Of a stretch of DNA of 64,000 bases, positions 24,612 through 63,700 are shown piece after piece. Below the pieces are notes generated by a model, which worked only from the letters and a program-made list of their open reading frames with translations, was not told the DNA's origin and searched no databases. The position numbers and the translations under genes are program-made. Source of the DNA: Petrolisthes cinctipes (Eukaryota > Arthropoda > Malacostraca > Decapoda > Porcellanidae); the NCBI GenBank assembly GCA_033782935.1, contig JAWQEG010003748.1:1-64000 (forward strand), read 5' to 3'. Every line of letters starts with the position of its first letter. The stretch's first letter is position 1.

Positions 24612-25892
24612 GCAAAGTGGTTAAGTAATATAATTATGTGAAGACCAATGTGGAGAACAGTATATTTCAACATTACAGTATTGTTGTTTAATGACTGAGG
24701 GTTACTAGGTTATAAAGTACAGTATAATGAAATGTAGAGGATGAAGAAGCATGTGAGAAGGAGAATATGATAAGACCAGGGGAAATGAACTGATGAAAGC
24801 AAGGATAAATGAGAGAGGTAGAAGTTTGGGAGAGGGAGGAAGAGTGGACTTCTATGGTGTATAAAGGTTTGTTCCCTCAGCCAGTCACAATATAACTGCA
24901 GCATCTGACGTTTGAACGACTAAACAACATAATAAGATAGATTCCAAAATGTGTTATGTCATTTGAATCACAGAGAATTCAGTCATAAAGTGGCTGGCTA
25001 AAGGAACGAACTTTTGTACACCATATTATAATAGGGTTACAGGAAATGGACAGCAAGAGATAGTATGTACTGTACAAGAGAGAAGATAAAAGGGAAGGAG
25101 AGATGGGAAAGGAGCAACATAGGTGACAGAGGAAAGGGAGGGAAGGTGTGAGGAGTGGATGAGAGGGAGTATATGAGATCAGAGCAAGAAAAGGTAATGA
25201 ATCACCTTATCATAAAGTTGTATATATACTTATATGCATATTAACCACAGGAAAAATTATGGGAAAGATAGAAAGTACTTCCATATATTACATCCTCCTT
25301 ATTTATATAAAAATCACCAGTACAAATGATCAATATCTGTATTTAATGTTGTATCCTCATTGGGCGTATCCAGAATATAGTACACAATGTGCATGTTTAA
25401 GATATCTATCTTCCCTATAGTCTAAGTCTCACCATTGTTATTTACAAAATAATTAATATTCAGGATACATGCTATTCAACATCTATTTAACTAAATAATT
25501 AGACATTTGAACTGCAAAATACACACTATACAGTACAGGGATATACATAAGTCAAAGTGATGGAAGGTCTTCAAAGTTCTTAAATCATTCTTAACTACAG
25601 TAGGCCTACATACTACAGTACTCATACTTACTAAATGTTTAATTTCTTTGTAATAAAAACCTTCTGTATAGTTTGCCATCACTTCTTGGGTTTATTGTAC
25701 TTGAAACACTCACTATGGAGTCTTTTCATATGACATTCTTATACCATTTCATCATGTCACAGTGAAATAATAGGAGTACAAGGACATGAGTGTTCCCCCA
25801 AATGGGTTATAAGTTCAACACATAATAATTATAGAAACATAAAATATATTAATAACATCCAGTGCTTTACCTTGTCACTTAATGGGCCGTAT
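24612..25892. other. No gene recognised
   Basis: AT-rich intergenic sequence between the BEL/Pao fragment and the 3' end of CIR1, with a purine-rich patch (25080-25200). No conserved frame or structured RNA seen. Confidence 0.5.
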
Positions 25893-26009
25893 TCAAGAAC
25901 ATTTGTGGTGTTGATGATGGTGTGTTACCAATACGACAACTCCATAGACAAATAACAGAACCATCGTACCAGTACCACACCATCATGAAAATCATGGATA
26001 TTCTTGCAT
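25893..26009. repeat. Palindromic element, family 1
   Basis: The left arm TTCAAGAACATTTGTGGTGT and right arm TATTCTTGCATA are inverted, with inner arms GATGATGGTGTG and CACACCATCATG. The centre has AACTCCATAGACAAATAACA. It is about 117 bp with no frame. Confidence 0.75.
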
Positions 26010-26121
26010 ACTGGCCAATGTGTGATCATGTACAAGTCATGTCACATCAATCCTAACATACCTTGCTAACATTCATACAACTCACACACAATAGATCTGG
26101 TATCATCAACATATTACTGTA

Positions 26122-26426: not shown

Positions 26427-27611
26427 TTATCTCCTGTCTCTCTCTTTACTCCTCTCTCTCACTCTATCCCTATTCTTTTCTCTCTCTCTGCTTCTATCTC
26501 TTCCTTTGCCCCTATCCCTACTACTGTCACTTTCCCTATCTCGTTCATTTCTTCCTTCTCTATCCCTCTCTCTACTTCCTTCTTTACCTCTTCTGCATCT
26601 CCTGTCCCTCTCTTCCCGGTCCCTGCTTCTCTCTCGGTCTCTCTTATCTCTTCCCTGATGCTTATCCCTGTCACAGCTTCCCTCTCCCCTGTTCAGATGT
26701 TTCTCTCTGGTTTTACTGTTTTGCTGCTGTGTTGTTTTGTAATCTCCCTCGTTGTTCCTATCATTTGCACTTCCCCAAAAGTCCCAGGCACGGGTTCGAC
26801 CCCCAGAAGTCTGCTCCACTCTGCCTGTGGCTCCATTGATACTGTTATTTGTACCGTGTGCACTGTCCTGTCTGCTTTGCTTATATTCATGCATGTATTT
26901 CCTGCGGTGCCTGTCCTCCCCTCCTTGCAGTTGTCTACTTGGCTGGTCCTCATCTGATGATGTCCCAGCCTCCTGTTTGATGGTAACCTTCTCAGACCTC
27001 ATGGACCCTTTACTCAAGTCATCATCTTGTTTGCTTCGCTTCTCATGATTATTGTGGTTTTTCTTCTTGTGTCTTTGATGTCTGTTGGGTGAGTCGTCAT
27101 CAAATGATCTCTTTTCCTCTTTGATAGCCAGAGTGTCCAGACGGCTCATGGAGTTGCCAAAAGGTTGATCATGCCCAATGAAGTCCACTTTAAGCCCCTT
27201 GGTGATCTCTCTTAGCAGTGCCTGTGGGTCTGCATTCTGTTCCTTCTCTTCTCTTTTCTTCTTATGTTTTTGCTTTTTCTTTTTCTTCTTTTTCTCATCT
27301 TCTGAGTCTGAATCAGAGCTGCTACTGCTACTACTACTGCTGCTTGAAATGCTTTTCCTTCTCTTTCTCTTCTTTTCCTTTTTATTCTTCTTTCTCTTCT
27401 TCTTTTTCTCATCTTCAGACTCAGAAGAATCTGAGTCTGAGTCGGAGGAGGACTCTGCATGCTTCTTCTTCTTTTTCTTTGACTTCTTAACCTTCTTCTT
27501 CCTGTTTCCCATTTTCTCGAGTTTCCGCAGCAGCTGTTTTTTCTCTTTTTTAGACAACGATCGCAGCAGCTTGTATTCATCCACACTTTCCTCATCACTT
27601 GACAGCAAGCA
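26427..27611 (-). CDS. CIR1: CIR1 coding exon 4 (Lys-, Ser- and Arg-rich tail)
   Basis: Acceptor TTTGCAG|TGCTTG; TAA at 26429-26427. It encodes residues 199-592. [20 protein letters not shown] corresponds to the acidic and leucine-containing block of CIR1. It is followed by poly-Lys with Ser/Asp/Glu runs, and from about residue 500 by alternating Arg-Asp and Arg-Glu. The antisense of this exon also reads open, which is only a consequence of its purine-rich composition. Confidence 0.88.
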   Translation of the reverse strand, partial: CLLSSDEESVDEYKLLRSLSKKEKKQLLRKLEKMGNRKKKVKKSKKKKKKHAESSSDSDSDSSESEDEKKKKRKKNKKEKKRKRRKSISSSSSSSSSSSDSDSEDEKKKKKKKQKHKKKREEKEQNADPQALLREITKGLKVDFIGHDQPFGNSMSRLDTLAIKEEKRSFDDDSPNRHQRHKKKNHNNHEKRSKQDDDLSKGSMRSEKVTIKQEAGTSSDEDQPSRQLQGGEDRHRRKYMHEYKQSRQDSAHGTNNSINGATGRVEQTSGGRTRAWDFWGSANDRNNEGDYKTTQQQNSKTREKHLNRGEGSCDRDKHQGRDKRDRERSRDREERDRRCRRGKEGSRERDREGRNERDRESDSSRDRGKGRDRSREREKNRDRVRERSKERDRR

Positions 27612-30600
27612 CTGCAAAGATACAAAAAGTTATACAATACTGTATAATAGAGGAAGAACCATACACTGAGAGAGTTCAAAAGAGCAATGGTAATATAAAA
27701 GAGATGGAAAAGTGTAAGAAGTGATCGAGTTTGTAACACAGAAAGAGGGGAACATTTATTTTTATTCTATCCTGTCTGAAAATGCTGTGAAGGTTGAGCC
27801 TTGAGCCACCCCACCCGACATGAGAACCATATTCCATAAATATACAGCAGTCACATAAAACATGGTTTTCGTATTGCAATTTCACAGAGAGAACTTGTTC
27901 TTCCAGAGTAATATATTATTCCCTTACATTATTGAGTCATTCATTATGCATCCATCCTGGCTCAGGAGGCAAAGAAAGATGCATTCAAACATTTACTTTT
28001 AGCCCAAGCTGAGTGTTTGTAAATGGGAAAATGTAAATATAAATTACATTCTGTCTACACTGTACAGGATACTTATTTGGCACACACACACAAAAATGGT
28101 GAGATCCCCCAACTGGCTCAACCGACTGACACATCCACTCACTTGGTTCCTAGCAAGGGGGTTCTGTGAGATTCCATAGATGCCTGAGGAGATACTGGCA
28201 ATGTTCTTGAGTCTGAGTCCATCATCTCTCATGCCAGCGGCCAACTCCTTCTGGTCAACATTGCCGGTGGCTTCTGTTGGCTCCAGTACTCGGCCATACA
28301 GTGGACACTCTTTGTCTGTATTGATGTGACCCCAAGCCTTACACTTGATACATCGCACATTACGCACAGCAATTCCGAAGGGCTGGTCACGGATGGTGTC
28401 GTCATTCTTGCAGTAACTGGGCAAACATTAAGAGCATTTTAGCTTAGGATATAGGATAAAAAGAATTTCCTATATTATGGCGACCTATATGTGTTTTTTC
28501 AACATTTCACAACTAAGGATCATATGGGTTAATATTTTATTTATTTACCATTTTGTGGTCTTGGTAAGGATTAAGGTCAGGGTTAAGTGGGAGTACTGTA
28601 GGAGGGATGAAGGGGGGAACAAGAGGGAGGTGGCAAGTGAAGATTGAGTGACAGTGAGTATAGAGAGGAATATAAGAGGAGGGTGGGTGAGGTGCTGGAG
28701 GATGCAAGGCTGGGTATAGGGGAGGGAGTGGGAGTGAATGATGTATATGAAGTGTTTAAGACACTAGTAATGAGGACAGCAGCAGGGGTAGTGGGATACA
28801 AGACACAGAAGAGGGGCAAGAAAGGGAATGCATGGTGGTTAGAAGAAGTGAAAAAAGCAATAGAAAATAAAAGGAATGCAAATAGGAGAACATTAGAGAG
28901 GAATGTGTCAGGGGAAGTGAAAGAGAGGTGGAAGAGAGAATATAATGTATGTAAAAGGCAAGTGAAGAGGATGGTGAGTGAGAGTAAAAGGAGAGTGGAT
29001 GAGGAGTTTGGTAGGAAACTGAGTGAGAAGTTTAAAGAAAACAAGAAATTATTCTGGAAGGAGGTTAAAAGAGAAAGAGGAGAAGGAACGTCTGGTAGCA
29101 TGAGAATGAATAGAGAGGATGGAGTTACTGAGAGTGGAAGTAAGGAAGTGAAAGAAGTATGGAAGAGGCATTTTGATAGTTTGATGAATGAGGGGATGGG
29201 AGGGAATGCGGTGGTGACATGCATGGGGCCATATGGAGGCAGGTGGTAGACGACAGGGTGTACAGGGAGAATTAGGAAGGGAAGAGGTTAGGAAAGCAAT
29301 AGGAAAGTTGAAGATGGGAAAGGCATCGGGGGTGGATGGGATAACTGCGGAAATGTTAAAGTGTGGAGGGGAGGTAGTGGTGGAGTGAATGTTGCTTATA
29401 TGCACATGGCTTGGAGGCAGGGAGAGGTACCAGAGGATTGGAGGAGAGCCATAATTGTGCCTTTGTATAAGGGGAAGGGGAGTAAGGATGAGTGTGGTAA
29501 CTATATGGGAATAAGCCTTCTTAGTGTACCGGGGAAGGTGTATGGGAAGGTTCTTACTGAGAGACTGACTGAAGTAACAGGGAATAAAGTTAGTGAGGAG
29601 CAGGGAGGGTTCAGAAAGGGTAGAGGATGTGTGGACCAGATATTTGCATTAAAATCAATAGTGGAGAAATATATTGGGAAGGGTAGGAAGTTGTATGCTG
29701 CTTTCATATGGACTTGGAGAAGGCATACGATAGGGTTGATAGGAGAGCTATGACAGAGGTGTTGAGAATTTGTGGCATTGAGGCCTTTTATGCAGATGCA
29801 AAAGCATGTGTGCAGGTAGAGGGTGGTCTAAGTGAGAGCTTTAATATTAGTGTAGGGCTGAGACAGGGGTGTGTTATGTCACCATGGTTGTTCAATATAT
29901 ATATGGATGGTTGTAAGAGAGAGATGAAAGCCAAAGTGAATGGCCTGGGGGCTAAGTTGAGGCTGCATGAAATAAATTGGTTCTTAATGGCAAGTTATTT
30001 GCGGATGACACTGTGTTGATGTCTGAGAGTGTAAGGGAGTTGCAGAGGGTGGTGGATGAATTTCAGTCCTGTGTAAACGAAGGAAACTGAAGGTGAATGT
30101 TGGTAAAAGTAAAGTGATGGTATTTGAGAGAGCAGAAACTGAAGTGATTGACTTTGCCACACCTTACACAGTGGGAGAACCAACAGGGTCCTGGAGTGGC
30201 GGCGTCTACGTCGTGGGACCACCCCCCAAGGCTCCCAAGGAAGGAAGCTATGGGGGCCAAACCGTCACAACATCCCCCCGCCCCCCACCAGGGGGCGTGA
30301 GTCCCTGGGAACGGCTTCAGTCACCCGGGCAATACCACACCCTCACACAACACACACAACTACACATTTTTTCATCACCGAGGAATGATTCTCCGGCTGT
30401 CATTTCTCGGCTTCTCCTTCTAGCAGCCGGAGACATTGAAAGCAATCCTGGACCCATAAACAAATACACATGTCCGACATGCTCTAAACCCATCACATCA
30501 AGTAGGCAGACAAAGGGTTCAGTTCAATGCAATTCCTGTAAGAACTTATCATGTACAACATTAGCATCCATGAAACACTACACAAACACATGGACCTGTT

Positions 30601-33600
30601 CCACATGTCCCTCACCTCTTCCAACACCACAACCTCCACCACACTCTCCATCACTCCCACCTCCATCACCCTTATTATCACCCACACCTCCATCACCCTT
30701 ACCATCACCCACACCTCCATCACCCTTACCAACACTCCCGCCTCCATCACCCATACAGAACAGAGCCCTAAAGACTATCACAGGCTGCACAGCTACCACA
30801 CCTACAGACCACCTACACTATGAAACCAAAGTCCTCAAAATCAAGGATCACCTTGACATGAGAGGCACACAAACACTTGCTGCAGCCTCCACAAACCCAC
30901 ACCATCCACTACACTACATGGCACAACACCCACACATGCCAAGGAACATCAAAACAACACCCAGTACACGATACCATACACAAATACTATCATCTCTTAC
31001 ACCCTGCCCAACCCAAACCAATCTCCAGAAACACATCCATACTCAAATCACTCATCAATCCATCCGAACACTCAAAAACAACACTCAGCTGTATGCACGA
31101 CCTCCTGACATCCACCCATCCGAATCCTCCCTTCCCCGTGAGGACAGAGTCCACCTGGCCAGGCTGAGGTGTGGCCACCACCCGGCCCTTCTGACATATC
31201 AGAAGAGGCTGGATGGAGCCATTGCGGACGCCTGTCCGGGATGCAACACAGCACCCCATTCTATTAAACACATTATTGAAGACTGCAACGCACACAACCA
31301 CACTCGCCAACAACACAACATACACTCTCTGAGGGCATTGTGGGAAAGCCCGGTTCAGGCCATGGCCTTCCTCAGGAGCTCGGGGCTGCTCGGCCAGACA
31401 GCTTGAGGAACTTCAACAACAACAACTGGGACTAAGTGTGAGATAACTCTGAGGGGTGAGAGGATGGAGGAAGTGAAGGAGTTTAAGTACCTGGGTACAG
31501 TTATGTGTAAACATGCAAGTATGGAAGGAGAAATTAGGGAGAGAGCAATGAGGGGTAGACAGGTCATAGGATCACTGGGGAGGATTATGAAGGGTAGAAG
31601 TGTGAGTATGGAAGTGAAAAGGGGACTAAGAAATAGTATAATCCTGCCAACACTGATATATGCATCAGAGACATGGACATGAAATAGGGCTCATCAGTCT
31701 AGAATAGGTGCAGTGGAAATGAGTTACTTGAGAGGAGCATGTGGACTTACTAGGTGGGATGGAGAAAGTAATGAGTGTGTATGAGAGATGTGGTATGAGT
31801 GAGAAGGCAATTGGTATTGAGTGTGGAGTGGTTGAGAGAGTGAAGCGTAATACACTGAGGTGGTTTGGGCATGTGGAGAGAATGCAAGGTGTGGAGTTTG
31901 TAAAGAAGGTGTATGGAAGTGAAGTTGTGGGACCTGGTGTGAGAGGTAGACCTCCGGTTAGATGGCAGAACAGAGTGGAAGAGTATGTAAAGGAGAGAAA
32001 CATGAGGGGCAGAGTAGGGCTTGACCAAGTAAGAAGGGAGTGTTGGAACAGGGAAAACTGGAGACACTTCTGTCGTGGCCACCCCCTTGGGGAGAGTTCC
32101 CAGAGGGAACGAGGCATCAGAGCTATAGATAGATAGATTTTATTTACTCAAAACCATCTTCTTCACTGTTAAACAATACTGTACCTTTCTCTGGGAGCAT
32201 TAAACTTGCGTTGCCACTCAAACTTGTACTCTGGTTCTCCGTCTTCTTTTTCTCTTTCCTTCTTGACCCCAGCTGGAGCCTCATACATGAAGTTAAGGGA
32301 GAGTTTGTCCTTATTCTCTCCCTTAGTCAGTAATGCCTTGTTGTTGTACAGTTCTTGTTCCTTCTCATATTGCATACGAAGTTCATCTTGTTTTTTTCTC
32401 TCTGCCTCGGCCTTCTGTTCTGCTATCCAAACCTACAAACAGAGAGAAAATCAATTACAGTGAAGGGCTTCTATTAGTATTGATTCTGTTTATATTTTCT
32501 TGTACGGTAGTGTTGGGTAGGTTGCACCAGTCTCGATTAGGTTGAACAGGTGATCAGGTGGTTTAATTGATTCAAGAATGGTTGGTGTCATTATTATGGC
32601 CAAGTTAGGTCAAAGTATTCTGACCCAACCAAGATTAAGCTTAGCCTAGTTATGTCAGGTTTCAAAGGTTTGCCTAATTTTGAAAAAGAAAAAAAATAAG
32701 GTCAAGTTTAAGTTGAGCCACAGAAATGGAGGTAAACATAATATTATTCATTTGTTTTACCTCTCAATGCAAGCCTCTTGGGATGGGTGAGTCAAACATG
32801 GTCAACACCATTTTAAGGTAAATTTTCCGAGTTACACATGTGTGAGATTTTCAGACAAAACATAGTATTTCCTATAGTTTTTCATGTGATTCATTCAATT
32901 TTAACATTCATTTATTGTGCAAATATCCTGATTTGGCCATACCCCATCACCCAGCTTTTGGCAAAAGTTGGCTTGGGTTCTCCAATTTTTGGCGAGCACA
33001 AATAGTATTTGTTTGTTGTACAATTAGGCAGACCTGACCTGACCTAACCTAACCTAATCTGGATGGTTGCAGACTACCAGGACCTAACCTTAGCAGATTA
33101 CTGGGACCTAACCTTAACCCTTAACTCGCGGGTGTAGCAATATTACGGCACTATCAACAAGTCTAGAGCATCGTGGGTGTAGCATTAATTCGGCAGCACC
33201 ATTTTTGAAATTGCGCAGTCCCTAGCAAACTAGTTTTGATGTGGAAACACTGTGGCTGGCAGTTATGGACTTGGCTACAACCATCTCACCCACCACCAGT
33301 CAGTGTTGTTTGAACTGTGAGGGTTTTCATCACTCCTCTTTTCCTGTAATTACCATATATGTACGTAAAAATGACATTGACATTATAATATTTCATATTG
33401 TTGTGTTGAAAACGTACTTTGATGTGTAAATATAGTGTAAGAGTGAATCTTGAGTTGATGTCATTGTGAGGTGCCTACCCTTCATACAGATGTCATTATA
33501 GTCTTCGCAAGTACATCAGGAAACAGCTAAGGGTTTGTACTTCAATTTTGCCCCGGTCACTTTATGATAGTTTACACCGGTTATATCCCGGTAGTTTGCC

Positions 33601-50300: not shown

Positions 50301-53300
50301 TAAAGCATCTTTTTAGCAATCAGCAGTGGAAAATTCTGAAGCCTGTGAATACTGTACTTGTAAAACAACTATTGAATTGAGAATTATGGTTAATATACAA
50401 GTGCTGTGAGAGATATATAAAAGACCATCTCACATTCTACAACAACTGTTGAATGGTACAGTAATGGCCCCATCAATGCTCTTGAATAATTTTGTACAAT
50501 CATGTAATGAAATTTTATTTGCAAATATTGTAGCTATAGATTTGGTCAACCCTTTCTAATAAAAGGGTTAGAACTTAGAACCTTTGACACACAAGTCATT
50601 AGGCCAGTTCTCTAAGCTTAAAACCATCTGAATGTATTTTTTGTTTATGGTCATGCCATTCATGTTTTGAATAACAAGCACAATGATACCCACTGCTGAA
50701 AGGGTTGCAGTACAGTACTATGTATAGTACACTACAATTTATTTCTAATTATCTAAATAACATTCCTGCATGATTCAAGCAAGCTCTGATTCTTCTTGGG
50801 ATACTCTCTTTCACAAGCTTTCAATATGACAAGCATGGGAAACCTTTGTACTAAGAAATACTAAGGATTGGTGTCAGGGCTGTCTCAGTAATTCCATAAA
50901 AATAAAGTAAGAACACTGTATTGCAGCATTATACAGTGATTACAGACTGTAACAAAAGACAGTGATGTAGCCTGGGGAGTGATATGGGAGTCATTGCCAC
51001 CACCAAGTAAATAGTCTGTTGTAGTGAGAAATAAACACATCAGCAGATTAAGAAAGAGAAGTATATAATTATACAGGTAATTAAAAAAGCAAAATTGCCT
51101 TGTCTAACATTTATGAAAGAGCATTAATTCTATAAGAGATTCTTGATTCTATCAAGTTCTAACCTCACCGAGGTTTGAAATAATCCAAACTAAGATGTAT
51201 GATTGAAAAAGAACCAAACAAACAGGTATGACTGTATATGGTAATTGACCAAGAAGGATATTCCAGTCAGACATTAATAATCCTATATTTCCTGTACACA
51301 GACCATGCTACACCACTGACACAAGCTGGTAACAATCAACTTGCTATAGGCTGGGTGGATGGGTAGGTTGAAGGTTAAGTTGTCTAGACCCAAAATGTCT
51401 ACCTACCCACTGAGAGTATTTCGTCTCCGAGCTCCTGGTATTCTATCATCCAAGGACAATAATATAGAATGATAAATAAGTAACAGTATATAGTCATGGT
51501 AGTATAACAGTTAGAGTCATATGTTGTTGCCAGAGAAGAGAAAGAGAAGGTACAGTAAGCATTGAGGGAAGAACAAAAGAAAGGAGGAACAGTTGAAGTG
51601 CTGAAAATAATTGACTTGGGATTGATAGAGTATCAAAATCCTCCTGTGAATACTGTTGACATCTCTGCAGGGAAACCCTTCCTGTGGAGTGGGTAGATGA
51701 GGAGTGAGAGGTGAAAAGGATAAGGGAAGCTGGAATGATAGAAAGCTAGATGCATACAGATGGCAGACAGACAGAAAAATGAAATGGAGAGACAGATATG
51801 AAAGAAGGACAGAAAAATATGGCTACAGCCTATTAGACCCAGACACTCATAAGGTCCATATGAGAAGTATTAATTGATTACTCTTATGAACTGGTTACCA
51901 AAGCTATTTCACACAAAGAGCAAACTATATCAAAGGACCTTAATATTTGAGAACCATACCCTACCACTGGCTTCTGAGGACACCAAGAGTCCATTGATAG
52001 AAGAATTTAAATACTACATTGTATAATTATTACTTACATGATAATTTCTGGTGACATTATTTTGAAAAGAATACATTTATAAAAATGCACAACCTGAAGC
52101 TTTTCCTACATATATTCTGTTCTGCTCAGGGTTGTGATATAATGATTTGAAGTAATGTCTGAATACAAATTATAGGTGTACACTTCCCATGGTTGGCTGT
52201 TCCAAAAATAGCATATACAATGGAGAACAGACACCTGGGAAAACAATTGGCAATCTTCAAAAAGGGCCTCAGTGTAAAATTAAGTGGTGGATAACTTTCC
52301 GTCATATGTATGCTATTTTTTTAGGCACATACCAGATTGTATAATGGTACTCAAGGAAAAAAACAATGCTTTACTGTACTTACTTTTGAGCAGCAAATTT
52401 CCACTTGTTGATAACTTTAAGGCGACGGTCCTTCCCCAAGTGTTCCTCCAGCATGGATATCAGTTCCGCCCTCTGTATTGACCCCAACAGGATCATCGAG
52501 TCTGTAATAAGTACACATTTACTGTCACCATCATTCTCTTCATCATTCATACATCTAATTATACATATATATGTTTTTAATAAACTATTACTGTACCAAA
52601 GGAGTTTTCCTGACTTTACAAAGCCAGTTTTATGATAAATTCTGCAGACCAACATTATCTTTTTGGCAATAGACAGGGAGAAGCTGAGGAATATTTGCAT
52701 GTAATTTCCAACAAGTAGGTACCCATGTGAAACCTTTAAAAAATATACATTACAGTTATATATATACATAATAAACGCAGAGTTACTATATATACCTGGT
52801 GAATCAACTAGTGGTAATGATCTTATCTTCTTATGTTCTTTGAGAATATTTTTCAGTTGACGGTAAGTGATGCCATACCAGATATACTTGACATTCCTCA
52901 CCATGAAGTCTTCCACATATATGTTATAAGCCCCAGAGGTTGCTGTGAGGATGTCTGGTAGGTAAGGCAGTTTTTTTATCTGTATTATGGAGTCGTATAC
53001 AGAGGGTTGAAGCAGCTGAGCGATGCCGTTTGCTATAAGGACAGCAATCTGGTAGGGTAGCAAGGCAAGCATTAGTGTTACAGTACTCAGTAAGAAGGAA
53101 TTCCACGCTCTTTTTACACTACTTCCCCATACCTGGTTTTATTTATCTATGTACTATTCATTAACCTTCATCAATAAACATAAGGCGGTATTTCATATAT
53201 ACACTGATTGTCCTGACCTGTGTAAGAGCCTAATATGCCGAAAGAGTCACTTCAAATTGCTATTCATTCATTTATTCCTATGGCCTGATGCCTTAATTGT

Positions 53301-56300
53301 TCCCTCATGGACACTCCACTAAGGGTTGGCCAAGACAGAACATTAACAATAACTTCTCTATCTCACTTGGCAAGGATACACACTCAGTAAACAGTAAACA
53401 GACCATGACAGGGAGAATATGAGTGATTTGTCCGGTGAGCTCGAAGACGATGACTGATGTGGAGATGGTGTGGGTGACCGCTCCTGCTAACGCTGCGGCT
53501 CCTACGATTGAGTACCCACCTGCGAGTCAAACATTAAATTATTGCTAAATTATATAAATCAACTTGGCTATGATTTTGAGTAATTTGTGGGCAGTAGGGA
53601 AAATGTTATGGTTTTAAAAGGAAATTGACTGGTGATCAATTCTTTTGTTTTGTTTTTCTTTTCCTGAGTCTGGAGCCAAACATATGGTGTCTTGACAATA
53701 ATGATGATAACCAGTAAACCTATTATGATAAAAATGATACAGTTGTTTGTGCCCATAAAACCTGCATTTCTCATTGTCATTATCTCTTTATACACAAATT
53801 CATTACACAAGGTACAATTCTTTTCTTCAAAAGGTGTTTTCATCAACAATACAATACAGTACAGCCGTCAGTCTGCCAACCTACCAGGTATAATGATATG
53901 GTTGTGTCCTCCATAACTCAGACCAGATGGGAAAGCTGATGCCATCCCCTCCCCCATTATTCTGCCAAGGGCAGCACCAATCTTGAACACAGGTATGAAG
54001 ATGCCAGACGGTACAGGTAGGGTACTGGCCACTACACTCCCACCAAACTGCAAGAAATTATAGTCATCATTACCAGTACAAATATCAATGTTATCAATAT
54101 TAAGTTATTGAAGGCATGACTGTACCAAGATTAATAATGTTACACATTCTAGAATGATGATAGGAAAAGCATACCATTATTCAAGATATAAATATGGTTC
54201 AATCCAGATATAAAAACTCACGGTAAAGGCGATATAAAGAAGAAGGTCAACAAAGACATTAGTCCAAGGTGTCCGCCAGTTCTCAACAATCTCAAACTCT
54301 TGTACATTGTGTTCTGCCTTGGTCCAGCTCACATTACTAAACAGTTCCACCACCTGTAGATATCCATCAAGACACCAAATATTAATCCTCAAAGCATGGG
54401 TAAAGTCCTACAATATCTATATTATCCTATTATACTCTGGCAACATTTGATGATATTACTTTCTCCAAAGACATTCTCCATCCCCAATGAGTTTTACACT
54501 ATCACTGTAAGGGCTACAAATTTTGCTGCAGATAACAATAAAACTTTTACTTACCAGGTTTATCCTCCAAGACGAAGGCCAGTTCAAGGATTAACCACCA
54601 AACTGTTAACAACTTCAAGGCTTGTGATTCCTCTAAACTGTACTACTGTATACTAAGATACGAAATACCATATTATAAGGGATCTATTTTTTGGCACTGG
54701 TTGGAGGAATCTGTAACCTCCTATCTGCCATTACAGTACTTTATTACTGTAGTATATGAGGTACAGTATGCAGTGAAAAAAATTAAACTAAGTATCAACA
54801 AAATCTTGAAATGCAACAATAATTCATGCTATCATTAACATAACTTATGACAGCTCTTGAAAACAACCCATACAACTTTTGACCACTATTATGAAACTTT
54901 ACAATCCCTGACACTAAAATTTTATTACTGTCATGCAGAAAAAAAAAAAAAAAAAAAAAGGTACAAACTGCTTTTCCAGTATGTTGACCAGTTCATGCAC
55001 ACACTATTATTTTATGCAATGTATTATTGTGAATTATCATTTCTAGCCCACCGGGGTCTACAAGACTGTATGCAAAGAGTCTTCTCCTGTTAGTGGCTTA
55101 TATGTACTCTTAAATATCTAAGTAAAGCACTTTTGCTACATCACCTGTTGCAATTTTATCAATGATCATCGCAATCAGCAAATATCCCTCACTTACTCTG
55201 CAGTCAACCAAGGTGGGCAAAAAATAATTTCTGAGGTTCTCATGATTAAAATGAGGTTGGTAACCATGAATAAATGTTCACTACTGTACAAACAAAACAT
55301 GCATTTACACTGCATTACCATATTCTGGATAGCATTTATGTATATGACATACAATACTCAAGAGCAGTATATATTAAGGGTCTGAGTCCCAGTTATATTC
55401 TGTTTCTCATATGTAGAAATGATCAGGGATTTACTGTAGACACACTTATGTATAGCTACTGTGAACTATCTTTAAAAATGTTCCTCCCAAGGTTGAATAT
55501 GTTCTGTATGTGTTAAAGTAATGTGTTATTCAGTGGCAATTACAGGTACACACCATACAAGAAGCCATCATACCAATTCCTGTCATCACCATAACCAACA
55601 TGATAATGAAATAAGTAAAGTTCAACATGATAAGACTGCAAACGGTATACAGTACATAACAAAATTAATATCATCTACATTTCCAACAATAAATCTAATA
55701 AGTGAACTCTTCATCCTTCTATATCCACAACAAGATTTCTCTTTAATGCTGTAAAAAAAAAATCATAACAGTATAACTACTACAGTATTGTATTTGGAAA
55801 ACACCAAATGATGTACAACATAGATTTTTCTCCACAACTGTGCCATGAGATATGAGATACTGCACTGATACATTCAAGCATATGTATTGTGATGTCACAA
55901 AAAACATACTACTTACTGTACAGTACATTTAATGCACTCGAGCACATAAAAAATTTCAGTCACTTTAAACACAACATACAAAGCTATGCTCATTCCTCTT
56001 TATTGCAAGCACAAATAATTGATCAGTAGGTTCAGTACCCTTCTCTGTAGAACAAGCATAATCATTACTGACAAGTGGCTGCAGCAAAGCATAAAAAAAA
56101 ACTTTAATGACAACATTTTGCTATTGCCTGCTTCTTTAAGGCAAAGCAATAACAAAAAGTAGTCAACAAAGGATCCTTCATTACAAATTGTGTTTATTTT
56201 AGTCAAACGCTTCGCTCACTCCTCTTCAACACCAAAATGAGCAACTGATTATCAACTAGAGTAAGTGACCTCTCTACAACAAGCATGAGCATTATTGTAC

Positions 56301-59300
56301 TGCTTATTACACTAGTACATTTCTCTTCATCCTCCAGTCAGTCAAACTAAGGATTTCTCCATCCTCTAGCTTCTTGTAGGACACACCCAGAATCTGGTCA
56401 GGAAATATTGATAGATCCAACAGACAGAGGACAAAGGTAAAGGTACTACGGTTGCATGATAACGGTTTCAGTGACTCCAGAGAGTGAGGCTTACTTGGTT
56501 GTGAGTAGTGAGGTGTGCAGCAATGAACTGACCCAAACTGTTCGGAAAGGTGAGTGACATGAGGCCCACTGTTAGCAGCAGAGGGTACAGCAGACGACTG
56601 GGGCCGCCAAGGGGAAGGCAAGAAAAGAGAGAAAAAAAGAAATAGGAAGCAAAAAAGCACACATTAGAAAGGGAAGTAAGAAAAATAAAAAGGCAGAATA
56701 ATAATGAGAAAAAGGCACACCAGGTATAATAATGACAACCGTATGCATGAAAGAAATGCAATACAACCTTGACAGATATATATTTATTCCACATTATATA
56801 TTTTTTGAGTGGCAGGTATGTGTTGGGTAGTTAGGATAATGGTCCGTGTACCCATCTCATACATAGGCCTATGTTACATCTCACAGAGAAAAGTTGCTCG
56901 AGTCCAGGTCCTCCCATGCATATTTTTTTGGGGTAAATTTCATAACTATGTTCATTGGTGTTTTTGTAGGACACTTGTCAATGTGGAACAAAGAATGAAA
57001 AACTGTGAAGGAAGGAGATGTTATGTGTCACATTGATGCTCACTCTTTTATTTACCCTGTACTGTATACAGTACTAATATACTTCATCAATGTTATCTGC
57101 ATGGAAATGATTGTAGAATTCTCCATTAATTCTCTCCTTAGGGATATTCTCGTAGGGACTACAACAAGAATATTTTTTCTAGCCACACATTTGTGGGTGC
57201 CATTATCTGCATTTTCTTTAGGCATACAGGCATAAAGGTGTGTCTGGGAAACGAGCAAGGTAGCACCAAGGGAGGGCAAGCGGTATACCCACCTGGTGAT
57301 GAGAGGTATGATGAGAAGAGATAAACTGCCCGAGAAAAGGAGGAAACTGGAGAGTGAGCAGGAGTAGCGTCACCAACACAGGGTATGCAAATCGGCTGAC
57401 AGGTGAAACACAGAGAAAAACCTGAGTTCACCTCTTTAGGTGACTCAAGAGAAACAAGAAAGAGGGAGAAGGACAAATGAAAGGAAGGGGAATAAAGAGA
57501 ATGGAAGAAGGGAAAGGAAAATTTAGGAGAAGGCAAATGTAGGAAGGAATATGAAAGGATACAATCATTTGGGAGGGGTAAGTTGAAAATGTTTAGGTAA
57601 TGTCAGAACCGGCAGCTTTTAAAATGACACACTAGATGGGTTCCACCAAACTATGCTATAAAACAGATCTTCCATCTGTCTGATCTGTTTCCTCACATAC
57701 ACTTAACCCTCTAATTTGACCAACAGAAATCACCCCCATAAATGGAACTCAGCTCATGACTTTCCCTGCTTACAGCCTCAGGTCCAAACTTTACCATTGG
57801 TGTTTCTTCTTGAGGGGGATTATGATTATGTTTGTTGTGAGATTGGAGACAAATGGTTTCTTTTAAAATGGGCCAGGAAACAGTTCACCTAACTGTGTAG
57901 TAAATTAATATGCTTCCTGTCACAGTTTGCTGGATTCACTGGCCTCCAATTCATGGACAAATAACAAAGGAGGAAGAGGCAGAGTATATGGAGATCTGGA
58001 AGTAATAAGAGAACAGAGGGAGGGAGAGTAAAGGGAGTTATGGTAGGAATAACAGAGTATGTACAGGGAAAGGGAAGGGAGACTAAGCAGGAACAACAAA
58101 TCAGAGACAAGGAAAGAGGAAGGTCGGTAAGTAATTTTCTTGACGTGGCTGAACAGAAGCAAATGAAGAAGGAATTACTGGCTAAGCATGAGTAACATGA
58201 GTAAAGGCCAAGACTGTGATGAGAGTGTAAGGAAAGAAAATGAAGAAACAACACTTCCACCATTTTGATAATTCCACTGAGCACTGCAGTATTTCTCATG
58301 GTGTAATGCAGTTGACTTGGAATGGTAAACTGCACACTAATGCTATACAAACATCACTACATTTTACTGTTGTATGTAGCAGTGAGTAATGAAGGCATTA
58401 AAATGATGGAAGTGGCCAATCTTCATATCTTCCAAGGTCTCTAGGTGTATTAACAAAATGTACAGCACTTGATTTTTAACTTTACTCTGGATAGTGTAAT
58501 AAATAAAGCAATCTCTAATATACATACACAAATTTTGTTGTTGAAAAATGTAAGTATGTAATACCAAGTTCTCCAAACTATGCCATAAAGTCTACCACTG
58601 AATAGTACTTGTAAATTATTGTACAGTATGTGGTTTATTTTATGGTACATTTTGGAGAAGTCAGTGGCACCCATTTTCCTGACTGCATCGGACTACTCCC
58701 TCAACATTCACTAATAATTTTTATCTTGTCTCACAAGATTTCCTAATTTATGTAGATAGACATTTTCTACCATGTATGTTTACTGATTAAATTTGATTAA
58801 ATTCTAATATAATTTCTCTTGTACAGTATATGAAACATCAACTGAAGAGCTTTCATGTGTCAGAAAGGCTTCTTCTCATATGATGTTTTTATCAAATATT
58901 TCCCATTCCAAGACACACAAGACAACAGAACAAGAAGGACATAAGAACCACCACTCCTATTTGAGACACCTTCTCTGATTCCATAAAAGATGATAATAGT
59001 AGTGCGACTCTCAGCTATAAAATATTAATAAATATTAATAATTTGTCACTGATATGTTCCTTACATCAGTGTCCAGTAGCAATAGTAAGCCAAATCTTCT
59101 CTCACACATTCTTTCTGTATCTCCCTCTCACTGTCCGTCCCTTTATCAACATCTACATACTTCACTTTCTCTGCCTTCTCACAACTCTCTCCCTTTTAAC
59201 ACTCTCTCCTTGAAATGTGAGCCTGGGAATGTAGCTTTGTGATCCTAAGGGCCAATTTCAAGTACAGTATCATGGCATAATGGCATCTGTAGGTTTACAG

Positions 59301-62300
59301 CTACTGTGAAATTAGCCCAACCACTTCTGCCTCACATTTCTTGGAGAAGTTTGTAATAATATCTGACCCAGTAGGATGTATGGGAGACAAAAAAAAAAAA
59401 AAGGATATAAAAATTGAAAAAGTTGGGAAGGATATTGTCAGCAAATCAGAATCTTACGATTCCTCAAACTTTTGTTCAGCATCAGACATATACAGTAGTG
59501 TGGTCTAGTTTGGAGGAATCAGTAGCCTTCAATTTACTGATGACATTATTTCCCTGCAGTGAGTATGCAATGCTAATAATTTCAGGGACTCAATTGGAAC
59601 TAACATCACACAAGAATTATTGGGCAGCATGCAAGAACATTTGTGGTGTTAACGATGGTGTGGTACCGGTACGATGACTCCATAGACACAATACAGAACC
59701 ATCATACTGGTACCACACCATCGTCAACACTATCAATGTTCTTGCATATGATGGACTAACCCACATGATAAGATTGTGAATTATCAACCAAAGTGGAATA
59801 TTCAATCCTACCAGCACTGTCAAATTTGGCATGGGGAGTTTTCTGTAGTGTTAATTTATCAAACCTTGAGATAATAAATACAAATAAATGGGGAGACTTA
59901 TGGCCATTATAAACACAGTAACATAAATTATACTTTGGAGGTAAAATTCCAGCCTACTTATAGGACAAGATGTTGTCTGTAGAATGGTGGCCTTGGATTC
60001 TTCCAAACTACAGTGTATTGCAGACTTTCATATGGGTAATCTGTTTTGTGCCACAGATAGGAAATACAGTACCAGTTCCATCTAAACAAAACAGACCACC
60101 ATAACTATTATACTCTGCAATAATCTTTTTCCAGGAACAGTTTGGAGAATTCCTTTGCTTCCAATTGACCACCATCAACAAACACCTTACTCCTTAATTA
60201 AATAATCATCTGTACTATGTGTTGTTATGGTTGCCTTTTGTCAACTCACTTGCTGGTGGTTGTTGAGGTCAGTGGCCCAGAACTGTCCAAGGCCGAGGGG
60301 GAAGGAGAAGGAGCCGTACAGAAGGGTCACCAAGAGAGGGTACAACAGACGGCTGGGGAAAACAGGAGGGACACACATAACCAGGGATCACATGCAAGAA
60401 AAGTAATGGGCTAAACTAAGATGATAATAGGACTGATGGCTCCACAGACTTTACTGTATATGCAACCATAACACCAGCCATCATCATAATCATAGCCAAG
60501 CCCATTTCTTGCACAGCCCCAGGTATTAAGGCAGCATGCAGCAGCAACAGCAGTAAGAGGTGTGCACATGACAAACATTGATACAGTACAGTACATACAT
60601 GATGAGGAGTTCCAAAATACCATATGACCAATCAAGTGCCAAAATAAAATAATGATGCAAGTAATGATGTGGTGTTGACGATGGTGTGGTACCAGCACGA
60701 TGACTCTATAAACACAATTCAGAGCCATTGTAGGCTACCAGTCAACACCACAGATATTCTTGCATACAAAATGAGATATGGGCTACATCAATAATCATAA
60801 AACAAAATGGAGGAGACAATAAGAAAATTGTTATGTTGGCACCTAGTTGCTTGTGTTTTGGAGCACCACACATACATATTCAACCACAGTACAGTACATG
60901 GTATAATAATGCATGCTTGACAATCCATTAATTATACATGTGATGTACACATATAGGAGTTTTCAGATATTGTTGGTGTCAATAGAAGTGCTGTATTAAC
61001 AAAAATAAATAAAACTCAGGCAGAGATTCACAACAACTCATGGAAGGAAGACAAATAGATATAAGGTAAGGTATACACTTCCAAGGGAAATTGGGTTTGA
61101 CTACCAGTGATTGTAATAGAGGGAGCAGCACAGTGTCTGCTTATACTGTATTGGGAACAAGGAGCTTCTCCCATGTAACAGCTGTGACTTATATAGAGGA
61201 TATGTTGAGTTGCAGAGGGTGACAACATTTTGAGCCATGTATTAGTACAGTATCGAAATATGCTTTTCCATACATACACTGTACAATTTTATTGGTCAAA
61301 CTGGTACTAAGCCAGTATCATTTATACTGTACATGCCTCATTATGTGTGAACTGTAGGATACTTGTATGTGAACAGGGATTGGACTCAAAGCTCACAAAC
61401 TAAAAAGAATAACAGACAGAGAATATCTCTTGAAAAACATACTCTATTTCAATATTTAGAAATGTCAACCAAAATGTCAAGTTTGTACTGAGGTGCCACA
61501 GATTTGTTTACGAGGAAGCCAACGGGTTTAGTTTTGAACATTCTGACGCATCAAAAAGACAGTTCCAACAATCCAACCTGCCATAACTGCTGGAACTAAT
61601 TTGATAGCATTACCAGATAATTACAGTATTAATCAATCTATCACAGTGTGTCAGAGAAACTGTAGTCACCTCAATACAAATTCTGGATAGGGTGACTGTA
61701 TTGGAATGAGAATCAGTTTGCTGTATGCAGGCTACTGGTGTGACAATTGGTATACCTATAGTGTAGTACAGTAATTAGTGGGTACTGATATGAGATTCAG
61801 TATTGTATTTAGTAGGTGCCAGTATGAGATATTCTGTATGGATGGATAACTCTTGGGGTCCAACTGGAGACACAATTAATAGAACTGGTGGGTGAGGTTT
61901 TAAATTGGTGAAGAGATTATACAAGGTAAAACTGCATTATGAGAGGGAAATGGATATACAGCACAGTATCTTCAACAACAAAAGTTAATTAATCAGCTGA
62001 AAATTGAAAAAAACACATCAAATGCATAGTACAGTACGGTATAGTAAATGGAAATATCTGTCTATCTATCTATCTATAGCTCCGACGCCTCGTTCCCTCC
62101 GGGAACTCCCGCCAAGGGGGTGGCCACGGCAGAAGAGTCTCCAGTTTTTCCCTGTTCCAGCACTCCCTCCTCACTTGCTCCATCCCCCCTCCTCCCCTCA
62201 CACTTCTCTCTCTCACATACTCTTCCACTCTGTTCAGCCATCTAACCGGTGGTCTCCCTCTCACACCAGTTCCCACAACTTCACTTCCATACACCTTCTT

Positions 62301-63101
62301 TACAAACTACACACCTTGCATTCTCTCCACATGTCCAAACCACCTCAATGTATTACACTTCACCCTCTCAACCACTCCACACTCAATACCAATTGCCTTC
62401 TCACTCATACCACATCTCTCATACACACTCTCATTACTTTCTTCATCCCACCTAGTAAGTCCACATGCTCCTCTCAAGCAACTCATTTCCACTGTACCTA
62501 TTCTAGACTGATTAGCCCTACTCCATGTCCATGTCTCTGACGCATATGTCAGCGTTGGCAGGATTATACTATTTCTCAGTCCCTTTTTCACTTCCATACT
62601 CACACTTCTACCCTTCATAATCCTCCCCAGTGATCCTATGACCAGCCTGCCCCTCAATGCTCTCTCCCTGATTTCTCCTTCCATACTTCCATGTTTACAC
62701 AAAACTGTTTCCAGATACTTGAATTCCCTCACCTCCTCCATCCTTTCCCCCCTAAAGTTATCTCACATTCCGTCCCAGATATCTTTATCTTTTTATTTTT
62801 ATTTTAAATGGAAATTAAATAAAAAAATATCTATAATATTGTAGATCAATAGTCTATTACCAAACCATTATAATTATAAACTATGAATGTACTACAGTAC
62901 TGGCAATACAAAACTACTGAAACACTACATAACAAATACTCTATTGAGACATTAAGAGTATACATTACAGCATATTGTATATAGTAGTAAGTACAGTACC
63001 TCTTTTGAAGGAAGGCTTTCATCTTCTTATTCCTTCTCATAAAGATGACATACTGACGATGGACCCACACAAAGAATGCCCCCAGGAAGCCACACAACAC
63101 C
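41275..63101 (-). CDS. CLC-2-like voltage-gated chloride channel, 3' two thirds of the gene
   Basis: About 690 residues can be joined from 63101-63000, one of three 103-nt cassettes, then 54353-54222, 54047-53885, 53519-53404, 53048-52796, 52501-52384, 49642-49479, 47325-47042, 46601-46423, 46048-45934, 45504-45364, 45192-45106 and one of two terminal exons. All introns are GT-AG with matching phases. CLC proteins are dimeric membrane channels with one chloride pore per subunit and two cytoplasmic CBS domains. Visible landmarks are the GxFxP filter motif (SGIFIPVF), the [19 protein letters not shown] and FELTGQ helices, [20 protein letters not shown] (with the pore Tyr), CBS1 and CBS2. Residue order matches animal CLC-1/CLC-2/CLC-K types best. 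The GSGIP and GKEGP filter segments, with the gating Glu, would lie upstream of the window. The linker between the CBS domains is long and low-complexity. Confidence 0.93.
43108..43227 (-). CDS. CLC alternative terminal exon T2 (proximal)
   Basis: Acceptor CCTTGCAG|TTGAGG. It encodes [20 protein letters not shown] and a short basic tail ending RRKV before TAA, 39 residues. The first 13 residues match exon T1 except at two or three positions. The last CBS2 helix is kept while the tail changes from Thr/Ser-rich to strongly basic. The next AATAAA on this strand is far downstream (41782-41787). Confidence 0.85.
   Translation of the reverse strand: MRKAVDSTNSGDFKKPKRNKGVGGTFREKILRTTIRRKV
45106..45192 (-). 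CDS. CLC exon, core of CBS2
   Basis: Acceptor CCTCAG|GTGCAT and donor AAGGAG|GTAAGG; 29 codons, phase 0. [20 protein letters not shown] followed by IIGVVALKE is the conserved second half of CBS2. The next residues (LRKA...) come from either terminal exon. Confidence 0.93.
45364..45504 (-). CDS. CLC exon, start of CBS2
   Basis: Acceptor TTGTCAG|CCAATG and donor [32 protein letters not shown], then [17 protein letters not shown], corresponds to the MSPEEIEAWE...C.IDPSPFQLVE.TSL block that leads into CBS2. A 26-bp tandem duplication covers the donor (45321-45372). Confidence 0.92.
45934..46048 (-). CDS. CLC linker exon
   Basis: Acceptor CCTCAG|ACTTAG and donor [31 protein letters not shown] has further basic/Ser sites (RKAS). 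The exon ends in phase 0. Confidence 0.85.
46423..46601 (-). CDS. CLC linker exon with basic/Ser-rich motif
   Basis: Acceptor TTCCAG|ATTCAC and donor [30 protein letters not shown] is rich in potential basophilic kinase sites (RRNT, RKS). A Ser/Pro-rich segment follows. Confidence 0.85.
47042..47325 (-). CDS. CLC linker exon, Thr-rich
   Basis: Acceptor ATTATAG|GAGAGA and donor GAGGAG|GTACAG; 94 codons plus a split Arg codon. A Thr/Pro/Ala-rich stretch ([16 protein letters not shown]) is followed by [20 protein letters not shown]. It is low-complexity and cytoplasmic by position. It may be skipped in some transcripts, which cannot be seen from DNA. Confidence 0.8.
49479..49642 (-). CDS. CLC linker exon, charged coiled-coil-like
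   Basis: Acceptor TCATTAG|AGCTCT and donor GGTGGAA|GTAAGT. The 54 codons are rich in Glu, Lys and Arg ([20 protein letters not shown]), likely helical. This lies between the CBS domains and is poorly conserved across CLC proteins. I include it because both splice sites and phases fit. Confidence 0.85.
52384..52501 (-). CDS. CLC exon, end of CBS1
   Basis: Acceptor ATTACAG|ACTCGA and donor [31 protein letters not shown] ends CBS1, then a basic segment leads into the linker. Confidence 0.92.
52796..53048 (-). CDS. CLC exon with pore Tyr helix and start of CBS1
   Basis: Acceptor TACCAG|ATTGCT and donor [31 protein letters not shown] carries the conserved pore Tyr. KLPYLPD follows. [20 protein letters not shown] and [10 protein letters not shown] form the first half of CBS1. 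Confidence 0.93.
53404..53519 (-). CDS. CLC exon with the FELTGQ helix
   Basis: Acceptor TCGCAG|GTGGGT and donor [32 protein letters not shown] and [18 protein letters not shown] match the strongly conserved GGYAVVGAAA...FELTGQ..H.LP block, including a dimer-interface helix. Confidence 0.93.
53885..54047 (-). CDS. CLC pore exon with GxFxP filter motif
   Basis: Acceptor TTGCAG|TTTGGT and donor [30 protein letters not shown] and [13 protein letters not shown] correspond to the MP.P.G.FMPVF.IGAAFGR block. SGIFIP supplies the GxFxP chloride-coordinating residues. Confidence 0.93.
54222..54353 (-). CDS. CLC exon after the cassettes
   Basis: Acceptor TCTACAG|GTGGTG and donor TTTACC|GTGAGT; 44 codons, phase 0 at both ends. 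[15 protein letters not shown] corresponds to the LFDNNTW loop of CLC-2 and has a possible N-glycosylation site (NVS). [15 protein letters not shown] begins the next helix. Confidence 0.9.
54585..54735. repeat. Inverted-repeat short element, family 2 (CLC intron)
   Basis: The arms are CTTGTGATTCCTCTAAACTG and GGTTGGAGGAATCTGTAACCTCC around a spacer of about 70 bp. Confidence 0.55.
56495..56597 (-). CDS. CLC cassette exon C3 (alternative)
   Basis: 103 nt with acceptor GGCCCCAG|TCGT and donor AACCAA|GTAAGC. The 34 residues begin [18 protein letters not shown] and include [15 protein letters not shown]. It is identical to C1 at 19 of 34 positions. Confidence 0.9.
57293..57395 (-). CDS. CLC cassette exon C2 (alternative)
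   Basis: 103 nt with acceptor CTGTCAG|CCGA and donor CACCAG|GTGGGT. The 34 residues begin [18 protein letters not shown] and include [15 protein letters not shown]. By hand alignment it is identical to C1 at 16 of 34 positions and to C3 at 18. Confidence 0.88.
57850..57960. repeat. Inverted-repeat short element, family 2 (CLC intron, diverged)
   Basis: CAGTTTGCTGGATTCACTGGCCTCCAATTCATGGA in the right part resembles family 2. The left arm is weak. Confidence 0.35.
58560..58690. repeat. Inverted-repeat short element, family 2 (partial)
   Basis: TCTCCAAACTATGCCATAAAG and ATTTTGGAGAAGTCAGTGGCACCCATTTTC mark the two arms. Confidence 0.4.
59450..59550. repeat. Inverted-repeat short element, family 2 (CLC intron)
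   Basis: The arms are GATTCCTCAAACTTTTG and GTTTGGAGGAATCAGTAGCCTTCAATT. Confidence 0.55.
59629..59747. repeat. Palindromic element, family 1 (best copy)
   Basis: ATGCAAGAACATTTGTGGTG, AACGATGGTGTGGTACCGGT and ACGATGACTCCATAGACACA are mirrored by CATCATACTGGTACCACACC, ATCGTCAACACTATCAATG and TTCTTGCAT. The 119-bp unit is nearly self-complementary except for a central loop of about 25 bp. Confidence 0.8.
60250..60352 (-). CDS. CLC cassette exon C1 (alternative)
   Basis: 103 nt with acceptor TTCCCCAG|CCGT and donor CAGCAA|GTGAGT. It completes a Ser codon and adds 34 residues beginning [18 protein letters not shown] and containing [11 protein letters not shown]. This is the RFLYP...GFGQF segment of CLC channels. 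Phases (2 in, 0 out) equal those of C2 and C3. Confidence 0.9.
60666..60766. repeat. Palindromic element, family 1 (left end lost)
   Basis: GTGGTGTTGACGATGGTGTG and GTACCAGCACGATGACTC on the left; AGTCAACACCACAGATATTC and TTGCATA on the right. Confidence 0.7.
62056..62804 (-). mobile_element. 5'-truncated LINE copy with 11-bp target duplication (CLC intron)
   Basis: Same family as 28544-32136, here only the 3' end. It shows [40 protein letters not shown] and [20 protein letters not shown] sequence with one frameshift near 62307. It ends in (TAGA)n. TAAATGGAAAT flanks it exactly at 62045-62055 and 62805-62815, a clear target-site duplication. It lies in the intron before the cassette exons, in the same orientation as the channel gene. 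Confidence 0.85.
63000..63101 (-). CDS. CLC exon A (membrane helix and basic loop before the cassettes)
   Basis: Acceptor TATACAG|GGTGTT and donor AAAGAG|GTACTG. It encodes [20 protein letters not shown] followed by [13 protein letters not shown], equivalent to the helix plus RxQKxxxxF segment that precedes the RFLYP region of CLC-2. It ends with AG of a split Ser codon, which every cassette completes. Confidence 0.9.
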
Positions 63102-63118
63102 CTGTATATTACAAAGGG

Positions 63119-63243
63119 TCGTATTCAACAACATTCATGGTGCATACAATGGTGTGGTAACGGTACGAAGATTCCATAGACAAACAATAGAGCCATCGTA
63201 CCGGTACCATGCCATCGTGAACACCACAGATGTTTTTGCATAT
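63119..63243. repeat. Palindromic element, family 1
   Basis: CGTATTCAACAACATTCATG, ACAATGGTGTGGTAACGGTA and GAAGATTCCATAGACAAACA are mirrored by CCATCGTACCGGTACCATGC, CATCGTGAACACCACAGATG and TTTTTGCATA. It lies just upstream, in transcript sense, of CLC exon A. Confidence 0.75.
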
Positions 63244-63700
63244 CATTAAAAGTCACAAACAATCACAACACAATTATATTAAATATTCCTTATCAAAAAA
63301 ATAAAACAAAAGAGCAAAAGTGTCAGCCATATAATTATATAGATCATTATTATTATTTTAATGAACCTGACATATAAGGTTTGGAACAATTATTATTATG
63401 AATACTATCAACTAATTCATAGCTGGTATATCCAATGGCTGTATTTCACTTTCATTAAAGCCTAACTTGAATTACAAGAATTTTATATTCTCTCTTTTTT
63501 TTCTCACTCAAATTTATAGTAATGGAAGGACATCAGAATCATTTTAATCAGAACTTGGAAGCAACTTTTTAATGGCCTAAGACAAATTTAAGTAAAGTGA
63601 TTTTATGAATAAGATTATGAAATATTAAACTGTATCTAAGATTAGGAGAGAATAAACTATGGCTTGTGAACACCAAAGACTTTATTGAACAATGTGCTGT

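Follow-up and report, generated by a model that had tools for sequence, protein, structure and literature searches.

Introduction

Hyperpolarisation opens CLC-2-type chloride channels, external protons and an N-terminal blocking hairpin modulate them, and the parts of the protein responsible have long been debated. Drosophila ClC-a, the CLC-2 orthologue of the fly, is also the probable orthologue of the Petrolisthes cinctipes gene described here. Flores et al. are said to have described two Drosophila ClC-a splice variants giving ClC-2-type channels, and these variants reportedly differ in their C-terminal part. The ClC-a isoforms have predicted masses of 113-132 kDa (accessible text of PMC6851788). 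Among human and fly ion channels, tandem-duplicated exclusive exons are enriched, and some exclusive-exon swaps alter calcium sensitivity, conductance or gating (PMC9741552, in its available part). The P. cinctipes locus lies in a 64,000-nt stretch of DNA (assembly GCA_033782935.1, contig JAWQEG010003748.1, positions 1 to 64,000 of the forward strand; hereafter the window), in which three 103-nt cassettes (C1, C2 and C3) are very probably alternative exons, tandemly duplicated and mutually exclusive, of a CLC-2-type gene (Table 1). We infer their exclusivity in transcripts, their conservation and their function.

The gene and its three cassettes

A CLC-type chloride channel gene occupies the minus strand of the window from 63101 to 45106, with 12 constitutive exons (A and D-N) and three alternative cassettes; its N-terminal part lies beyond the window edge, and the modelled protein is partial. 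The model matches the Pfam domain PF00654 (Voltage_CLC; E 2.8e-30, profile 171-345 of 346), and its best PDB match is human CLC-1 at E 7.5e-100, followed by human CLC-2 at about 1e-96 and, well behind, CLC-K at about 1e-61. Judged by these similarities, the gene encodes a chloride channel of the CLC-1/CLC-2 type and putatively of the hyperpolarisation-activated CLC-2 type. Exons I-N fall outside the PDB and Pfam matches, are modelled from borders and frame only and are thus less certain than A-H.

The three cassettes are all situated between exons A and D. Exon A ends in AAAAGAG (donor border GAG/GTACTG, the slash marking the exon edge), and the first base of each cassette completes its AG to a Ser codon (AG/C, AG/C and AG/T in C1, C2 and C3) followed by 34 open codons. 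Pairwise, the encoded segments share 16/34, 19/34 and 18/34 residues, while 13/34 are common to all three, with the core R..YP.L.T.......FP..LGQF.......H.Q. Each cassette aligns without gaps to residues 363-396 of human CLC-2 (query residue i = 328 + i) with 15-17 of the 34 residues identical, and eight positions are invariant in the cassettes, CLC-1 and CLC-2 (R363, P367, T371, F379, P380, G384, Q385 and F386). An initial annotation of this DNA had named a CLC gene and an equal-length, phase-matched triplet with AG and GT borders, a shared completed Ser codon, 34 encoded residues and thirteen invariant positions, and each of these particulars, coordinates included, is found in the sequence. 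Its description of the segment as RFLYP...GQF is right for R..YP and GQF in the common core, but the literal RFLYP occurs in none of the three. According to the accessible text of PMC3228551, clusters of mutually exclusive exons are recognised by similar length, compatible splice sites with a conserved frame, and sequence homology; the triplet displays all three.

Reading frame

Exon A joined to any single cassette and to exons D-N is open over 652 codons, for each of the three cassettes. By contrast, a stop is met when the cassettes are skipped, in all three cassette pairs, and when all three cassettes are included together (309 nt); the stop lies in exon D after skipping or any pair and in C3 after triple inclusion, with 10-11 modelled junctions downstream. 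At the protein level, the channel could be made by single inclusion only, and the proposal that exactly one cassette keeps the frame is borne out. Products in which so many junctions lie far downstream of the stop are expected to undergo nonsense-mediated decay. While the frame is observed directly, the other combinations would be predicted to enter this decay or to yield a dead protein. Exons not divisible by three are included in 377 of 629 human clusters (60%) according to the available part of PMC5740500.

The same frame logic could serve ordinary cassette exons that are freely combined or skipped, for example as a splicing off switch acting via decay. Skipping and double inclusion both lead to early stops, a format usable for such a switch, and the exon A donor is weak, being the lowest (-0.72) of 15 donors scored with a generic frequency table, on which the cassette donors reach 4.0-5.9. 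An off switch has, however, no need of three homologous cassettes for the same structural segment, and single inclusion alone can give a protein; we consider this alternative very unlikely.

Copy number and controls

The similarity among the cassettes stands well apart from the background of splice-bounded open segments. The minus strand has 46 open segments of the form AG-103-GT and the plus strand 37; in ungapped BLOSUM62 comparisons the cassettes score 87-97 against one another, and the best other segment scores -2 (minus) or -1 (plus). When lengths of 82-124 nt are allowed in the A-D interval, the 96 sense candidates return the same three cassettes with a next score of 10, and the antisense control (49 candidates) has a top score of 16. 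The cassette scores exceed those of all 20,000 residue shuffles in three of three pairs. None of these splice-bounded candidates, sense or antisense, is a fourth or decayed cassette. Searches of the window by tblastn with each cassette recover the three cassette sites at E 3e-6 or better and no further match better than E 0.06.

For the 12 constitutive exons, tblastn gave no convincing second copy in the window: second-best matches have E 0.003 or worse, with the exception of exon G (E 3e-4, on the strand opposite to exon G itself), and they are short, low in complexity or antisense to their own exon. Thus, only the cassette segment was multiplied. This bears on an assembly artefact, in which alleles or paralogous genes would have been collapsed or strung together. 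The introns are rich in repeats, which are able to mislead assemblers; yet the cassettes, alike at 53, 61 and 57 of 102 bases, are too divergent for alleles, their 60-nt flanks match at 14-28 of 60 positions, and the 12 other modelled exons are present once, all of which makes an artefact extremely improbable.

Age and selection

Across the three pairs, synonymous-site differences (NG86) are 0.87, 0.67 and 0.82 and nonsynonymous differences 0.35, 0.31 and 0.31; Fisher tests on rounded synonymous and nonsynonymous counts give p = 2e-5, 1e-3 and 8e-6. Synonymous sites are near saturation and the protein is constrained, and the cassettes are old duplicates under purifying selection that have been retained as coding exons, none of the three having lost its length, its frame or either splice site. 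This pattern of selection is the strongest sign, short of RNA, that all three cassettes are probably used.

A different reading is that only one cassette is used, and that the other two are duplicated exons whose use was lost or never gained. Silent duplicates are possible in principle, and the use of every cassette is itself deduced from DNA sequence. Against this stand the near-saturated synonymous change with a constrained protein in every pair, the retention by all three of 103 nt, an open frame, AG/GT borders and fair donors, and the eight positions held in common with human CLC-1 and CLC-2. An unused duplicate of such age should have decayed, and single use therefore seems improbable compared with the use of all three as exclusive alternatives.

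How one cassette might be chosen

In the proposed mechanism, the exon A donor would join the acceptor of one cassette, and the donor of the same cassette would join exon D. The sequence 5' of the acceptors differs among the cassettes: pyrimidine content over the preceding 150 nt is 0.79 for C2 and 0.78 for C3, compared to 0.43-0.66 in the 13 other modelled exons (0.60 for C1). Sense-strand clusters of 100-nt windows with at least 80% pyrimidine number 18 in the whole window; in the gene region (45-64 kb) there are just three, two before C2 and one before C3. Long pyrimidine tracts before C2 and C3, and their absence before C1, suggest a regulated choice. Mutually exclusive exons of a Ca2+ channel are reportedly under the control of polypyrimidine tract-binding protein (PTB; work cited in PMC3923563). 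C1 would be the default, and C2 and C3 would be repressed by PTB-like proteins on the long pyrimidine tracts. That C1 is the default, with C2 and C3 held back via these tracts, is offered tentatively as the least certain step of the mechanism.

Several points weigh against exclusive use of the cassettes, against this mode of choice or against the novelty of the arrangement. The triplet is known here from the genome of one species alone, and there is a real chance that these isoforms already figure in the annotations of related species. Tracts at two of three cassettes have a random-position estimate of about 7e-4, but the feature was picked after the data were seen. At C2 the last 50 nt before the acceptor have an unremarkable pyrimidine content (0.58), and C3, with an AG-free stretch of 170 nt, does not stand out from the constitutive exon A, which has one of 187 nt. 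Exclusion by steric hindrance requires a donor-to-branch-point distance under about 50 nt (PMC5740500, accessible text) and is ruled out as the mechanism of choice by the intron lengths, 2854 nt between C1 and C2 and 695 nt between C2 and C3. Intron pairing of the Dscam type is no better than in shuffled sequence (5/40 upstream and 5/40 downstream, for this one sequence).

Other modes of exclusion were considered. Incompatibility of U2 and U12 splice sites was rejected on inspection, as the donors (GTGAGT, GTGGGT and GTAAGC) and AG acceptors look U2-like when set against the U12 consensus. Across the three acceptor regions, the best shared pairing partner is a purine-rich stretch near 62199, which shuffled flanks equal in 5 of 40 cases and which falls in one copy of a repeat. 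This retroelement-like sequence occurs twice, at 62778-62064 (-) and 31426-32138 (+), the copies being 91% identical over 716 positions; the former, which contains the stretch near 62199, is situated in the A-C1 intron in sense orientation. A motif repeated in the C1-C2 intron was rejected as a selector, since 17 of its 27 matches lie below 45 kb, outside the gene, and mark it as a dispersed palindromic repeat. No Rfam family matched at gathering score in 54300-63200.

The palindromic motif, GATTCCTCCAAACT, has 27 matches with at most 3 mismatches in the whole window compared to 4.2 expected (e.g., at 1254, 18041, 59506 and 60138). Copies of a palindromic hairpin repeat occur at 59622-59752, 60655-60766, 63116-63246 and 25884-26010; the two copies on either side of cassette C1 could form a strong duplex with each other.

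Place in the channel and possible function

Depending on the cassette chosen, the gene would yield three channels identical except for the segment that matches residues 363-396 of human CLC-2. The swapped piece would comprise the cytoplasmic start of a helix with a hairpin-docking Arg, the helix itself, and an outer loop that lines the extracellular vestibule. Consistent with this, the cassette is on average hydrophobic over its first 18 residues but not over its last 16, the pattern of a membrane helix leading into an outer loop, and the initial annotation had likewise placed the cassette over one membrane segment and its extracellular side. We take the membrane helix to be helix K by CLC naming. 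The Arg corresponding to R363 is retained in C1, C2 and C3.

In the accessible text of PMC10942593, T20 of the CLC-2 N-terminal blocking hairpin hydrogen-bonds R363, residues of the J-K helix contact the hairpin turn, the blocker AK-42 is bound by S392 and K394, and the pocket positions at which CLC-2 departs from CLC-1 are I112, S392, Q393, K394 and L397. The AK-42 site lies in the outer vestibule (PMC10256776, available part). Three of these human pocket residues (Ser392, Gln393 and Lys394) fall within the segment that the cassettes would exchange, and the suggestion of the initial annotation that inhibitor binding may be affected thus appears apt. In C1, C2 and C3, respectively, residue 392 is N, T and T, 393 is N, S and T, 394 is H in all, and 395 is Q, H and N. 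Histidines number one in C1, four in C2 and two in C3, all at 390-395.

The core (R, P, T, FP and GQF) is retained and the helix body and outer loop vary, from which we infer tuning rather than loss of function. The properties tuned may be gating, external H+ or Zn2+ sensitivity, or blocker binding, and sensing of H+ or Zn2+ may differ between the cassettes, most in C2. A more far-reaching proposal, speculative and on balance unlikely, is that this is the first mutually exclusive exon cluster of the CLC family, in which splicing among three chimeras would set voltage gating and external sensitivity and C2 would be a splice-made sensor of external H+ or Zn2+. Three naturally selected versions of a 34-residue stretch that runs from the hairpin dock to the inhibitor pocket would provide ready-made chimeras for the gating question. 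If the triplet is widespread in arthropods, the CLC proteins would join the ion-channel families that diversify by exon rather than gene duplication, which would be relevant to salt and water balance, to excitability and to CLC blockers that are species-selective.

Other features of the window

The coordinates of the modelled exons and pyrimidine-rich tracts are collected in Table 1. Outside the channel gene, an open segment at 32169-32432 (-) has a Cir_N domain (E 1.4e-6) and is probably part of the next gene downstream, CIR1-like, to which a Lys/Ser/Arg-rich open reading frame (ORF) at 26427-27629 (-) may also belong. A reverse transcriptase fragment is found at 29687-30019 (+; RVT_1, E 1.7e-10). 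Two long ORFs at 21489-22981 (+) look like parts of a putative transposon-derived protein.

Table 1. Exons of the CLC-type gene and associated pyrimidine-rich tracts (window coordinates)
Feature	Position	Strand	Evidence
Exon A, upstream constitutive, common donor	63000..63101	-	AG/GT borders and open frame; alignment with human CLC-2 from residue 331
Cassette C1, 103 nt, 34 codons	60250..60352	-	AG/GT; donor score 5.1; upstream 150 nt 60% pyrimidine
Second pyrimidine-rich tract, further 5' of C2	57953..58124	-	100-nt windows up to 81% pyrimidine
Pyrimidine-rich tract 5' of C2, putative regulatory element	57429..57589	-	100-nt windows up to 89% pyrimidine
Cassette C2, 103 nt, 34 codons, four His in outer loop	57293..57395	-	AG/GT; donor score 5.9; upstream 150 nt 79% pyrimidine
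Pyrimidine-rich tract into C3 acceptor, putative regulatory element	56574..56732	-	100-nt windows up to 86% pyrimidine
Cassette C3, 103 nt, 34 codons	56495..56597	-	AG/GT; donor score 4.0; upstream 150 nt 78% pyrimidine
Exon D, downstream constitutive	54222..54353	-	open in frame behind each cassette
Exon E, selectivity-filter GIFIP region	53885..54047	-	frame and borders, PDB and Pfam matches
Exon F	53404..53519	-	frame and borders, PDB match
Exon G, membrane-domain end and CBS region start	52796..53048	-	frame and borders, PDB and Pfam matches
Exon H	52384..52501	-	frame and borders, PDB match
Exons I-N, C-terminal part	49642-49479, 47325-47042, 46601-46423, 46048-45934, 45504-45364, 45192-45106	-	splice borders and open frame

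Comparison with known systems

An exclusive triplet in an ion-channel gene would be a known arrangement, and its occurrence in a CLC gene the new part, for which no precedent was found. No report of mutually exclusive exons in a CLC gene was found in the open-licence literature, an absence that is weak evidence, and no relatives were confirmed in viral contigs. The terms CLC, CLCN and chloride are absent from the available main text of PMC9741552, as are CLCN and chloride from that of the human survey PMC5740500.

Over the cassette, human CLC-2 (CLCN2) is the gapless counterpart described above (residues 363-396, 15-17/34 identical). To our knowledge, human CLCN2 has no homologous cassette. 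Beyond the CLC family, the product of unc-32 is a subunit of the V-ATPase. In Caenorhabditis elegans, exons 4a-4c of unc-32 are likewise three mutually exclusive exons, although the protein is a different one and the choice of exon is regulated by UNC-75 (PMC3585155, accessible text). The arthropod channels cacophony, Ca-alpha1D, Ca-alpha1T, para and slowpoke, as covered in the available part of PMC9741552, likewise have homologous exons of the same length for one segment of a membrane channel, of which exactly one fits. Channels of the cacophony, para and slowpoke type belong to the voltage-gated cation family, whereas the P. cinctipes gene is of the CLC family and carries three copies of the exchanged segment.

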